Shown here: in pieces, positions 4,246 to 27,284 of the stretch
Layout: the number at the start of each line of letters is the position of its first letter
Position numbering within the stretch: the stretch's first letter is position 1
Origin: a bacterium
GTDB lineage: Bacteria > Hydrothermota > UBA3073 > JACQXS01 > JAQTXJ01
Assembly: GCA_028688815.1 (NCBI GenBank)
Contig: JAQTXJ010000010.1
Span: 1 to 46,488, forward strand
Direction of reading: 5' to 3'
Length of the DNA: 46,488 nucleotides
Made by a program: the position numbers and the translations under genes
Notes under the pieces: model-generated
Seen by the model: the letters and a program-made list of their open reading frames with translations, nothing else
What the model was told of the DNA's origin: nothing
Databases searched by the model: none

Positions 4246-6657
4246 TTATTTTATTAAACTAATCTTTTTGGATATTCGGGTATTTCCTGTCTGCAATACG
4301 ACAAAATATATTCCAGAACTAATATTACAAATATTAGCCGCTAAACTAATTTCACCCGGATTTCTAACTTCATCAACAAGAGTTTTCATCCTTCTTCCGA
4401 CATTATCATAAAGTTTCACAGTAACCTGTTGAGTTGCAGGATTGCTGAATTTAACAAATAAAAAGTTTGATACCGGGTTAGGTGAAACACTTAAATCAAA
4501 TCTCCGGGTGTTAAATTCTTCTATCCCGGGATTTCCTACTTTTAGGGTAATGGGGACAAGATATGGGGTATGGATAGAGTCATTTGAGGCAATATGGAGA
4601 GTATCATAGTAATAACCTTTAGAAAGTTTGGCTTGAGTAATTACAGTAACCGCTTGTGAACCTCCTGGAATCACAGTAAAATTTCTTGGGACAACAGATC
4701 TAATCCACCGTGCTTTATAAGAAACATCCGTAACTTTTAAATCTCCGCTTGCAGAACCTGAATTAGAAACGGTTATTGTTCCAGTATCTGCAGGTAAAGT
4801 ATTGTTGTTAAGCGCAGCCTGGACTGCCGTCTGAAGATTAGGTTTCCCATAACCATAGTATTTATCACGTCCGGTAGTTCCAAGGTCAACTGCAGTAGAA
4901 GTCAAAATATCTCTCACTTCCTGATTTGTAAGATATGGATTTGCAGACCACACAAGCGCTGCACTTCCTGCCACAAGAGGAGTAGCCATTGAAGTACCGT
5001 TCCATGTTCCCTGATAAGCGCTACCGGTTATAGTAGAAGTAATCGTATCCCCCGGTGCAACAAGCTCAACTTCCGAACCATAACTACTAAAGCTGCACAA
5101 CTGGTTATTCGGTTCTATTGCACCTACCGCGATAACCGTAGAGTAAGCAGCAGGATACCCTACAAATTCCGTGCCATCGTTTCCAGTTGCCGCACATAAA
5201 ACTGCTCCCGAATCCCATGCTGCCTGACATTCAGCTTCGACATAGGAAGATGGCGCCCCATATCCAAGACTCATAGAAATTATATTTACTTTATTGTCTA
5301 TACACCATTGAATACCCTGACCGACCTGGGAAGCAGCCCCAGTCCCGCCATTTAAGGCTCTAATGGCATAAAGTTGTGAATTTGATACTCCTGCAACGCC
5401 AATTCCATTATTGATAGTTGCTGCTGCAAGTCCGGAACAGAAAGTCCCATGGTCCTCATCTGAACCACTGGGTTTGGGGTCACCATCACCATCTACAACA
5501 TCCCTGCCTTTAATAACCCCATACTGAGATTTTAAATCAGGATGAGTATATTCGGTCCCTTCATCAATTACCCCAATTGAAATAGCATAGCTACCCCAAC
5601 CATTTAATCCCCATGCTGCAGGAGCATTAAGATTATCCATATGCCACAACTGCGACCAATAAGGGTCATTTGGAGTGCCAAGAATTTTTACAATTCTATT
5701 AGGTTCTGCAGATTTAACATTGGGGTTTGTTTTCATACGTGCAATAAAAGCTTTTGTCTCTGCAATTCCACCCGGAATTTTGACAAGTATAAAATTGGAA
5801 CCCAATTCTTTATTTACTAAATTTATTCCCTTTTCTACAATACCAAGCTCATTTAATTTTGCATTTTTAACATTTACATTACTCTTATATCCGATTATTA
5901 TTTCCCCGGACGCTATATCTTCCCAGTATTTTTCATCATTCTCTGATATCACAGGAACAGAGGATAATTTATAACTTCCTACACTGCTATCTATTTGCAA
6001 TGTAAGATTTCCAGGGGTCACACCAATATAAGGTGTTCCTTCTCCTTCGTACTTTACCACAGCAGCATGGAAATAGTCAAAATCGTCATCATACCATGTT
6101 GACCCATTGGTAGACCATTTATTCGGCGCGCTAGGAACTTTATCGACTGCAGTTGTGGGAAAAGCAACACTCCATTCATAATTTCCAACCCAGAAAGGGC
6201 CTGAAATATATATTGGAGTAGGTAACGTGTACGAATATATGCCCGTATCACTTCCAGTGCCTGATTCCAGTGAACGCAGAGAGAATAGCCGTGTCCCCGG
6301 GTGTCCACTTGCATCACTCCAGATAAAGAGACTACATTCTTTTGCACTAAGCCCGGAAAGCTTAACTCCATGCCAGATTGTTATTATAGAACAGGGAGAA
6401 GCAGGAGTCAAACACGTAGCCTCATATTCTTGTATAAAAGTGGCAGATAAAGCATAAAAAGGTGGTTTCATGTCAGGCATTAAAGTATCTATATTCCCTT
6501 TAGAAAAAGAGAATGCCTTGTTGTCATTCTTCGCTTTATAATTATCGGAAGTAAGGACAACGGTTCTTGATGCTTCAACAGGAATATTACTGGAAAACAA
6601 AAACAACAAAAAACAAGAACCAATAAACCTCGACTTCGAAAATACAACTTTACACAT
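4246..6657 (-). CDS. secreted S8 (subtilisin-like) serine protease with C-terminal sorting domain
   Basis: 803 aa from the start chosen here. An upstream in-frame ATG at 6681 exists, but the ATG at 6657 has a perfect AAAGGAGGA ribosome-binding site 4 nt away. Layout: signal peptide 1-28; beta-rich N-terminal region about 50-215; inhibitor-I9/fervidolysin-like propeptide about 245-325; subtilase domain about 345-615. The triad is D365 (VIDEGT), H403 (DEDHGTFCSG) and S556 (NGTSMATP), with oxyanion N493 (AATGND). An Ig-like segment follows (about 630-710), then a C-terminal sorting domain (SPNPVSN ... SSGIYFVVL ... KKISLIK). It is expected to be exported and cell-surface or extracellular, degrading proteins. 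It follows the kelch gene by 24 nt and probably shares its transcript. Confidence 0.92.
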   Translation of the reverse strand: MCKVVFSKSRFIGSCFLLFLFSSNIPVEASRTVVLTSDNYKAKNDNKAFSFSKGNIDTLMPDMKPPFYALSATFIQEYEATCLTPASPCSIITIWHGVKLSGLSAKECSLFIWSDASGHPGTRLFSLRSLESGTGSDTGIYSYTLPTPIYISGPFWVGNYEWSVAFPTTAVDKVPSAPNKWSTNGSTWYDDDFDYFHAAVVKYEGEGTPYIGVTPGNLTLQIDSSVGSYKLSSVPVISENDEKYWEDIASGEIIIGYKSNVNVKNAKLNELGIVEKGINLVNKELGSNFILVKIPGGIAETKAFIARMKTNPNVKSAEPNRIVKILGTPNDPYWSQLWHMDNLNAPAAWGLNGWGSYAISIGVIDEGTEYTHPDLKSQYGVIKGRDVVDGDGDPKPSGSDEDHGTFCSGLAAATINNGIGVAGVSNSQLYAIRALNGGTGAASQVGQGIQWCIDNKVNIISMSLGYGAPSSYVEAECQAAWDSGAVLCAATGNDGTEFVGYPAAYSTVIAVGAIEPNNQLCSFSSYGSEVELVAPGDTITSTITGSAYQGTWNGTSMATPLVAGSAALVWSANPYLTNQEVRDILTSTAVDLGTTGRDKYYGYGKPNLQTAVQAALNNNTLPADTGTITVSNSGSASGDLKVTDVSYKARWIRSVVPRNFTVIPGGSQAVTVITQAKLSKGYYYDTLHIASNDSIHTPYLVPITLKVGNPGIEEFNTRRFDLSVSPNPVSNFLFVKFSNPATQQVTVKLYDNVGRRMKTLVDEVRNPGEISLAANICNISSGIYFVVLQTGNTRISKKISLIK

Positions 6658-6660
6658 ACT

Positions 6661-6669
6661 TCCTCCTTT
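6661..6669 (-). promoter_or_regulatory. ribosome-binding site that fixes the start of the S8 protease
   Basis: AAAGGAGGA on the minus strand lies 4 nt before the ATG at 6657 but downstream of the longer-frame ATG at 6681, which has no comparable site. It therefore decides the start codon. Confidence 0.8.
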
Positions 6670-6681
6670 GCTGATAGCCAT

Positions 6682-24311: not shown

Positions 24312-25973
24312 TTATTTAATTTTCACCAATTTTTTTATTAGTTTATAATCCGCCGATTTGACTTCTACAAAATAAATACCTGCAGGGCAGGTTTTAGGCG
24401 ACCATACTAAACTTTTAGACGATTTATTTAATTTGTCAACTTTATATACAGTCCTACCACTTATATCATAAATCCGTAATTCTGTTTCTTTATCTTTCCC
24501 TTGTTGAGCAGGGCAAAATCCGCCTGAGGCGGAGTAACTGATTACTGTTGACTGAATAAACGGATTCGGATAAGTCTCTATTTTTGATATTTGATTTTTA
24601 ATATTTGATTTTTCTTCTATCCCTATTGTATGAGTAAATTCAATTTCGATTGAATTTAGGATTGGCGTTAAATCAGAAGTTGGGGTAGCGAACTTAACCT
24701 GATACTGGATATATCCTTTATTGTCAAAGCTATACGGTATTGTATCCCCGGAATTATTTATACGAACAGAATCCACGCCATACATATCTTCCGTAGAATT
24801 TGTTCTTATCCAGACTTCCATAGTTCCGGTATTCAAAGATGCATCCCATGTAACGTGTCCGTAATCAACGCTATTCACGGAATCTGCTCTCAACACAGAT
24901 GATTTAAACGAACCTGAAACAAAGTACCCTGCATTTGAAACTCTGCCGTTGCCCACTATTCCGGAATTAGAACCAACATATAAAAAGCCATTTGTAGTTT
25001 GTATTATGGAATATATTGCACTTATTGCAACATCTATTTGTTCGGAAGTCCAACTTGTGCCATTAGCGGATTTATACAAATATCCGCTTAAAGTTCCGGT
25101 TCCTGCATATATTATATTATTATCTCCCTTGAATAAAGAATAAACGGAATTTGCATAAGTCAGTTTTTGTGTTGTATCCCAGCTAACACCTTTGTTACTG
25201 CTTTTGAAAACTTTACCCGAATCAGGACCTGTTCCGGCATAAACAAAAGAATCGCTTATAGCAAGCGAAAAAACAACTCTATCTTTATGCGGGAACATTG
25301 TCGTATCAAAAACAAGCCCATCTGTAGATTTGAATACTCCTGAAATCGTATCTTTTTTAACAACTCTACTACCGCCTGCATAAAGATTATTTTCGGAATC
25401 TTCTACAATTTCCCATATTCGTATTCCATTGTTAACAGTTAGGGCTGTCCACACACTACCATCCGAGGATTTATAAATTTCTCCGTCTCCCGTTCCTGCA
25501 TAGAATGTACCGTTTTTTGCAACAAGCAAAGCATTCACGGGTTTCGTTAAATTTGTAGAACTCCAGCTTGTAGTATATTTTAACAAACCGACATCAGTCC
25601 CTGCGTACAATATGTTATCTTGAATTATCAAACTATGCACCCAATTGCAGGAAGGTATTTCTATATCCGTCCAGTTATTTCCGTAATCCGTAGTTTTAAA
25701 AACAAACCCTTTAAGTGCTGCGCTATCACCACCAGCATAAAGCACACTATCGGATACATCCGTAAGAGCCCATATATTTGTGACGCCTTTAAGTTGTCCC
25801 GTATTTTGCCATCCATCTGGAGCATCAAGTAAAATACTTCCCGGGAGTCTTGAATAATTTATATTTTTTTTATTAAAAAATTTTGTAGTATCCGACCATA
25901 AAAGCTGTCCACTTCCGCCAGACCAATTAGTTTGAGACCACAAATTCAATGCAAGAAAATAAAAAATAATCAT
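24312..25973 (-). CDS. secreted beta-propeller (BNR/YCF48-like) protein with C-terminal sorting domain
   Basis: 553 aa. A short hydrophobic signal region (MIIFYFLALNLWSQ) is followed by about seven units around the pattern 'YSLxxxxxxxLYAGTxxGxVFKSxxxGxxW' (about residues 65-345), typical of a seven-bladed propeller. A beta-sandwich region (about 355-455) follows, then a C-terminal sorting domain (IETYPNPF ... LRIYDISGRTVY ... CPAGIYFVEV ... KKLVKIK). Within that last domain residues about 481-493 (SASGG then FCPAQQGK) are encoded by a palindromic repeat and interrupt the usual spacing. The function is unknown; it is likely a surface or extracellular protein. No good ribosome-binding site is seen. 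An in-frame stop upstream makes the ATG at 25973 the first possible start. Confidence 0.8.
   Translation of the reverse strand: MIIFYFLALNLWSQTNWSGGSGQLLWSDTTKFFNKKNINYSRLPGSILLDAPDGWQNTGQLKGVTNIWALTDVSDSVLYAGGDSAALKGFVFKTTDYGNNWTDIEIPSCNWVHSLIIQDNILYAGTDVGLLKYTTSWSSTNLTKPVNALLVAKNGTFYAGTGDGEIYKSSDGSVWTALTVNNGIRIWEIVEDSENNLYAGGSRVVKKDTISGVFKSTDGLVFDTTMFPHKDRVVFSLAISDSFVYAGTGPDSGKVFKSSNKGVSWDTTQKLTYANSVYSLFKGDNNIIYAGTGTLSGYLYKSANGTSWTSEQIDVAISAIYSIIQTTNGFLYVGSNSGIVGNGRVSNAGYFVSGSFKSSVLRADSVNSVDYGHVTWDASLNTGTMEVWIRTNSTEDMYGVDSVRINNSGDTIPYSFDNKGYIQYQVKFATPTSDLTPILNSIEIEFTHTIGIEEKSNIKNQISKIETYPNPFIQSTVISYSASGGFCPAQQGKDKETELRIYDISGRTVYKVDKLNKSSKSLVWSPKTCPAGIYFVEVKSADYKLIKKLVKIK
24499..24533. repeat. 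palindromic repeat element inserted in frame in a coding sequence
   Basis: Two adjacent hairpins: CCCTTGTTGAGCAGGG (24499-24514, arms CCCT/AGGG) and TCCGCCTGAGGCGGA (24519-24533). The 15-bp second palindrome is identical to that at 30071-30085 between ftsA and murC, and similar to CCGCCTCTGGCGG near 43044-43056. It is translated as part of the sorting domain of the propeller protein. Confidence 0.6.
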
Positions 25974-26008: not shown

Positions 26009-26788
26009 TTACCACCTATATCTTGCAGCCTGGTATATTTCTTTTGAGCTTGCTTGTATAAAGACAACAATGCTGCAGTTACTCGCATTACAACTTGCCC
26101 CAACAGTAAAAGCTCTTGTTTCGTCAAGTGAACCATTTGCCGGTATAGATACCGATTTTCCGGTTGGGTCGGGAAGCATATCCCGCACTACATTATAGAA
26201 AGTACTTCCCGAATAAGAAATATTAGTTTCAACAAGCACAACATACATAGTTCCGGTTATTGCAGCGCCCGTTGTATTCGTAATATGAACTTTAACAGTT
26301 CCGCTTTTCGAAGAAGCGTTGTAAGATGACCCACCGAGTCCGATTTTAAGAGAAATCGGGACAACTTTTCGAGTATTAAAATCGGTTCTATGAACAGTAG
26401 TAGGTGGTCCGACTCTTGGCACAATTCCATCGCATACAGTAGTGGGAGTACTATTCACGGAATAAAGGCTTCCTCTTGCAGTAACAGGGCCCGCAAAAGG
26501 AGCACCGGCATGGAAAGCAAGAACGATCAAGGAATCTTTTGCTTCGTTTTCCAAGGTATACAGCGCACTCGCTGTAGGAGGGCAGCTTGGTCAGCCTGTG
26601 CTAGTAAATTCTTCTATTAACACGGTTCTATAAGAAGCGCCTGTAGTTGTCGTTCCGGATCCATTACCATTGCCACCATTATTAGTGCTATTCAACGGGT
26701 CATACGGGTTATTTCTCGTCCTTTTACACCCTGCGGCACCAAAAACGATAAGTGGAATAAGAATCAAGTAACAGAATTTATTATTCAT
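26009..26788 (-). CDS. Omp28-like thioredoxin-fold lipoprotein, predicted selenoprotein (Sec encoded by in-frame UGA at 26591-26593)
   Basis: 259 aa if UGA codon 66 is read as selenocysteine. Layout: signal peptide with lipobox FGAAGC (lipid-anchored C21), a short NPYDP-containing linker rich in Asn/Gly/Thr (22-50), then an Omp28-type thioredoxin-like domain from about 54. It starts RTVLIEEFTSTG-U-PSCPPTASAL, where relatives read EEFTGxxCxxCP, so Sec66 replaces the first redox cysteine and C69 is the second. PTTVCDG further on matches the cis-proline strand of the fold. A beta-rich C-terminal half follows. The frame is the same on both sides of the UGA, and a SECIS-like hairpin lies directly after it. 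The start at 26788 has GAGGAGG 5-6 nt upstream; a GTG at 26803 is less likely. It overlaps the upstream gene by 8 nt. Likely role: extracytoplasmic thiol/selenol redox chemistry (inferred). Conventional gene callers would split it in two. Confidence 0.85.
26551..26590 (-). promoter_or_regulatory. candidate bacterial SECIS element
   Basis: This 40-nt minus-strand segment begins with the base after the UGA. The lower stem is CCAAG/CUUGG (5 bp), followed by an asymmetric internal loop (9 nt and 3 nt), an upper stem UACAGCG/CGCUGUA (7 bp) and the apical loop AGUG. The loop starts 21 nt after the UGA and contains the G and U expected for SelB recognition in bacterial SECIS elements. The hairpin lies wholly within the coding sequence, as it does in bacteria. 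Confidence 0.8.
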
Positions 26789-27284
26789 AAGTCCTCCTCG
26801 CACATAAAGCTATGCCGTTACCTTGAGGTTCAAAATATAATCCATATTTTTTTATTTTTTTATAATGTTTTTTTACGACTGCTGGTTTGGAGAGAAACAT
26901 TGCATCCGCAACCGAATATGCGTATATACCTCCCATAAGGACAAAACTTGCTATACTCATTGTTCCGTAAGAATTTGATTTATTATAATGGCTGTCAAAT
27001 TCCGCCGGTGTAGCGGTAGCCCCAAGTCCTTTATATTTACTGTATTCACTACTACTACTTACCATAAATATTAATCCCGAAAGTAACGTAACTGCTTCCC
27101 CGCCCATTATTCCGTAAGACTTAATTGTTTCACCCTTTTCTAACTGAGGCAAACCCGGAATAAACATTTTGCTATCGATTACCGATGCGGTAGAATTACT
27201 TTTTGCGAAACAGGAATTTGTCAAAACTCCTGATTGTGTGATAAGAATAGATATACAAAAAACATAAAATATTTTTGTGTTCAT
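26781..27284 (-). CDS. DUF5683-like predicted membrane protein
   Basis: 167 aa. It has an N-terminal signal or anchor segment (IFYVFCISILITQSGV) and a motif MFIPGLPQLEKGETIKSYGIMGGE, resembling the 'PGxGQxYxGxxxKGxx' start of DUF5683 and related small membrane proteins of the FCB group. Two further hydrophobic stretches follow (AVTLLSGLIFMVSSS and TMSIASFVLMGGIYAYSVADAMF). The tail is basic (KKHYKKIKKYGLYFEPQGNG). The function is unknown. A good promoter lies upstream. Its stop codon is embedded in the start of the predicted selenoprotein gene (8-nt overlap, ATGAATAA), so the two proteins are probably made together. Confidence 0.7.
   Translation of the reverse strand: MNTKIFYVFCISILITQSGVLTNSCFAKSNSTASVIDSKMFIPGLPQLEKGETIKSYGIMGGEAVTLLSGLIFMVSSSSEYSKYKGLGATATPAEFDSHYNKSNSYGTMSIASFVLMGGIYAYSVADAMFLSKPAVVKKHYKKIKKYGLYFEPQGNGIALCARRTYE
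26792..26798 (-). promoter_or_regulatory. ribosome-binding site fixing the start of the predicted selenoprotein
   Basis: GAGGAGG on the minus strand, 3-9 nt before ATG 26788 and within the last codons of the upstream gene. It selects the ATG over the GTG at 26803. Confidence 0.75.

Follow-up and report, generated by a model that had tools for sequence, protein, structure and literature searches.

The locus studied here raises the question of what becomes of a single UGA codon within a gene. In the window, that is, the whole stretch of 46,488 nucleotides that was analyzed, an open reading frame on the minus strand (26009 to 26788) runs from an ATG at 26788, with a strong AGGAGG ribosome-binding site immediately 5′ of it, to a TAA at 26009. 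Its 259 residues are interrupted by a sole in-frame stop, a TGA at 26593 to 26591 that forms codon 66. A preliminary description of this DNA had reported one frame broken only by this UGA, and its coordinates, strand, and codon proved exact. We propose, with a probability of roughly 0.88, that the gene encodes a selenoprotein whose UGA is decoded by way of SelA, SelB, tRNA-Sec, and a hairpin, and that it yields a thioredoxin-fold protein of the Omp28/HBP35 type, anchored by lipid outside the cytoplasm. This reading is supported by the computations, which found a conserved UGA at the catalytic column, a decoding machinery, and the fold.

We searched 100 related genomes and found homologues in 54 of them. 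By our count, 44 among the matches listed contain exactly one internal stop, which is TGA; one weak fragment among the homologue matches holds TAA/TAG. For codon reading we used 43 UGA copies, the window gene included, and 35 Cys copies; the 43 do not include a further UGA relative (G098:C1:924572), which tblastn did not recover in its stretch. Among these copies, which were selected because both motif positions hold C or U, TGA is the first codon of the U/CxxC motif in 43 of 43 UGA genes, and TGT or TGC stands at that column in the relatives that lack TGA. Both the first (Cys/Sec) and the second (Cys) column are invariant in a protein alignment of 66 sequences; in the window gene they correspond to the putative selenocysteine U66 (26591 to 26593, minus strand), which is the first residue of UxxC, and to Cys69 (26582 to 26584, minus strand), the presumed resolving cysteine of the UPSC motif. 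Pro115 (26444 to 26446, minus strand) falls in another invariant column, P68 of alignment A1, and the fold suggests that it serves as the cis-proline of a thioredoxin domain. The placement of the UGA at the first cysteine of a CxxC motif, followed by a cis-proline, had been pointed out in the preliminary description and is borne out by all 43 UGA copies and by the invariant Pro115 column. It had also named homologues lacking Cys or Sec at this column as grounds for rejecting its proposal; every copy that we read has Cys or UGA there.

The components needed to decode UGA as selenocysteine are largely present in the window's own genome. It has selB (373 bits), a tRNA-Sec with a UCA anticodon (70 bits with Infernal) on the same contig as selB, and selA (518 bits), which is split between two contigs: C118 carries selB, the tRNA-Sec gene, and the 3′ end of selA (L073), and the 5′ part of selA lies at the end of C2 (L074). 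The ends of C118 and C2 overlap by 246 bp at 99.6%, and the joined order is selA-selB-tRNA-Sec. ARAGORN did not detect a tRNA-Sec on the selB locus that was scanned first, because that locus began at C118:1044, outside of which the tRNA-Sec gene lies (C118:455-545); Infernal recovered the gene on the entire contig. The window itself gave no matches in Rfam and tRNA scans. A search for selD gave nothing over the cutoff in the window's own assembly, which is 92% complete in 157 contigs; the sister genome of the same genus does have selD, itself with a UGA. Thus, the machinery that the preliminary description had proposed to look for was recovered in the same genome as regards selA, selB, and tRNA-Sec, and only in a same-genus genome as regards selD. 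In the sister genome (G001), an Omp28-like UGA gene lies 15 bp downstream of selD in the same orientation (L095:370-2445), an arrangement that suggests an operon. By the tree, the window's genome has no clear ortholog of this selD-adjacent paralogue, and the missing selD and the missing ortholog would fit a single unassembled region. Across genomes, selB scores over the cutoff in all 24 that carry a UGA copy versus 3 of the 30 that have a homologue without UGA (54 genomes, Fisher p = 4e-12, a test that ignores shared ancestry). UGA codon 66 would be decoded by SelA, SelB, and tRNA-Sec and, judging from the sequences compared, very probably codes for selenocysteine.

Two other explanations of the UGA deserve consideration. 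The codon could have arisen from a Cys codon, by mutation in a pseudogene or by sequencing error, so that the full protein is not made; the assembly is metagenomic and has 157 contigs, and a single base separates TGA from TGC and from TGT. Yet the same TGA is kept in the closest ortholog, which is 91% identical and comes from the independent sister genome, which speaks against a sequencing error. Beyond this pair, the six copies in the window's genome and the six in the sister genome are all UGA forms (12 of 12, at the same column), the five further ones lying on contigs C31, C153, C53, and C45 in the former (G000; L055, L057, L058, and L061) and at L056, L059, L060, and L062 in the latter, with one tandem pair in each genome and with type IX sorting tails on most of these further genes. 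Between the window gene and its ortholog, dN/dS is 0.136 both before (0.054/0.395) and after (0.045/0.330) the UGA, and this equal purifying selection on either side argues that the part downstream of the UGA is translated. Given this low dN/dS after the UGA and the confinement of UGA copies to Sec-decoding genomes, we regard a decayed or misread Cys codon as highly improbable. We give equally little credence to the idea that UGA is read as tryptophan or another ordinary residue, through code reassignment or leaky readthrough. An in-frame UGA alone does not discriminate between this and selenocysteine, but UGA acts as an ordinary stop elsewhere in the window, where it terminates 4 of 36 genes and no long open frame continues past it, relatives that lack UGA have Cys at the column, and the UGA copies track selB. 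Decoding as selenocysteine is the reading that we carry forward.

Just downstream of the UGA, a SECIS-like hairpin (26551 to 26590, minus strand) with a core stem that pairs 26576-26570 with 26565-26559 and a GU-containing AGUG loop may aid this decoding. It folds at −13.1 kcal/mol, with a z score of −3.56 versus 400 synonymous recodings; the closest ortholog has a weak one, at −8.0 kcal/mol and a z score of −1.27. The mean z score is −1.48 for the 43 Sec genes compared to −0.24 for the 35 Cys genes and +0.25 for control stretches of the Sec genes, with only 15 of the 43 Sec genes having an individually significant hairpin (0.05), and a GU at nucleotides 23 and 24 after the UGA, or at the same place, is found in 19 of 43 Sec genes versus 5 of 35 Cys genes. 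The register of the hairpin differs among paralogues. In seven same-register sequences, counts of covarying pairs were not above those of shuffled controls; these counts are uninformative because the hairpin core never varies. With textbook bSECIS limits, no qualifying hairpin was found in several UGA genes, so either these limits or the register as annotated must be unsuited to some members. The tree requires 8 switches between Sec and Cys, at least 4 of them forced by well-supported branches. Two Cys-type Omp28-like genes in selB-bearing genomes (L022 in G074 and L023 in G076) retain a stable hairpin where a SECIS would lie (z = −1.3 and −2.1), which may be a relic of a recent Sec-to-Cys switch.

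Concerning the product, the Pfam Omp28 C-terminal domain (PF11551) is matched with E = 2.2e-12 and 47.6 bits, above the gathering cutoff of 34.9. A confident AlphaFold2 model (pLDDT 93, pTM 0.91) arranges its elements in thioredoxin-like order, with a C-terminal beta domain after them, and the invariant columns and the secondary structure of the model place the U/CxxC motif at the start of the first helix, together with a cis-Pro. The best match among solved structures is HBP35 of Porphyromonas gingivalis (5y1a, TM 0.76), which likewise combines a thioredoxin domain with a beta domain but has Cys in place of the Sec of the window protein. The second-best is the DUF1223 protein Atu2684 (2axo, TM 0.65), at 18% identity; DUF1223 matches residues 57 to 93 of the window protein with a score under the family cutoff. 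Sequence profile searches retrieved thioredoxins, HBP35, and Omp28 (2r2c). Recombinant HBP35 reduces insulin, and its thioredoxin activity is lost when the two active-site cysteines are mutated (PMC2907840). From the fold match and this activity, we infer that the window protein is likely an extracytoplasmic thiol/selenol-disulfide oxidoreductase like HBP35, in which the selenolate of U66 would attack a substrate disulfide and Cys69 would resolve the U66-substrate intermediate. A predicted signal peptide with an AAGC lipobox (26726 to 26788, minus strand; VAGC in the ortholog), read from the sequence, would make Cys21 the lipidated residue and the protein a lipid-anchored one located in the envelope. 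Lipidation, envelope location, and catalysis, as well as a substrate and an electron donor, are all presumed features of the product. The gene could also encode a selenoprotein that is no oxidoreductase, with a Se/S pair that binds metal or haem, or with a role as a surface adhesin. HBP35, the nearest solved relative, has haemin binding as well, through a region that does not include its CxxC (PMC2907840), and Omp28 proteins had no established catalytic role in the sources that we consulted. However, the full set of UxxC and cis-Pro is invariant and HBP35 reduces insulin via its two cysteines (PMC2907840), so we consider a noncatalytic role rather unlikely.

The preliminary description was not aware of any Omp28-like proteins among listed selenoprotein families. 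Our literature search for Omp28 together with selenoproteins likewise found no paper, a result that taken alone would have misleadingly favored novelty; an NCBIfam scan instead brought up the family NF045500, "Omp28-related selenoprotein." A 2026 review lists this kind as "Hypothetical protein GOS_C," with a UxxC motif (PMC13188914), and GOS_C was predicted in 2008 by Zhang and Gladyshev on the basis of 74 marine sequences, as a protein of thioredoxin-like fold (PMC2398784). The identity of NF045500 with GOS_C rules out a new selenoprotein family. Hence, of the interpretation first put forward, there is strong support for selenocysteine at the first redox Cys of a thioredoxin-fold lipoprotein resembling Omp28, and the claim of a new family falls. 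Sequence comparison makes the window protein a divergent member of a selenoprotein kind that is known but itself still only predicted. It shares with NF045500/GOS_C the Omp28-related thioredoxin fold and Sec as the first residue of UxxC, the model aligning to residues 51 to 256, and differs in being a short lipoprotein without the C-terminal third of the 377-residue model. It scores 33.8 bits with this model and nine full-length relatives score 35.3 to 77.8, far under the cutoff of 200, which points to a divergent, lipid-anchored branch that annotation by that model would not flag. Compared to the Omp28 lipoproteins (NF033782/PF11551), which are likewise lipoproteins and share its C-terminal Omp28 domain (NCBIfam score of 58.4 bits, below the cutoff of 150), it has Sec for the first redox Cys. 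What is new is that the protein takes the form of a lipoprotein and that six paralogues make up the set.

Type IX secretion sorting domains were found in the other four fully scanned gene products of the window's genome and in most scanned relatives; the window protein has none. HBP35 is reported to leave the cell through the Por (type IX) system (PMC3120885), and it would in this respect be like the paralogues of the window protein and unlike the window lipoprotein itself. We lean toward a broader picture in which this bacterial branch has expanded Omp28/HBP35-like proteins to up to six Sec paralogues in each genome; some of these would be lipid-anchored, most would carry tags for type IX secretion, one is apparently made from an operon with selD, and together they would form an extracellular selenium redox system. 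Such a system would be missed by current annotation because its members fall below the cutoff of the known model, which suggests that the curated Omp28-related selenoprotein model has been drawn too narrowly; moreover, these genes come out of standard annotation truncated or split, and envelope and probably secreted selenoproteins therefore go unseen. Our search for type IX secretion together with selenoproteins found no relevant paper in the open-licence literature, which is weak evidence of novelty. If type IX secretion does export selenium-dependent thiol chemistry, this raises the questions of what serves as the reductant outside the cell and what the targets are.

Two neighbors of the gene are conserved. 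Upstream, a gene for a small protein of 167 amino acids (26781 to 27284, minus strand) overlaps the start of the selenoprotein gene by 8 bases and is kept as a neighbor at the ortholog locus; its product has no Pfam match, and this protein of unrecognized family is a possible partner of the selenoprotein. Downstream on the same strand, a conserved neighbor encodes a propeller-like protein with a type IX sorting tail (24312 to 25973, minus strand). Farther away, at 4246 to 6681, the window encodes a subtilase that also ends in a type IX secretion sorting tail, from which we conclude that the organism probably has type IX secretion.
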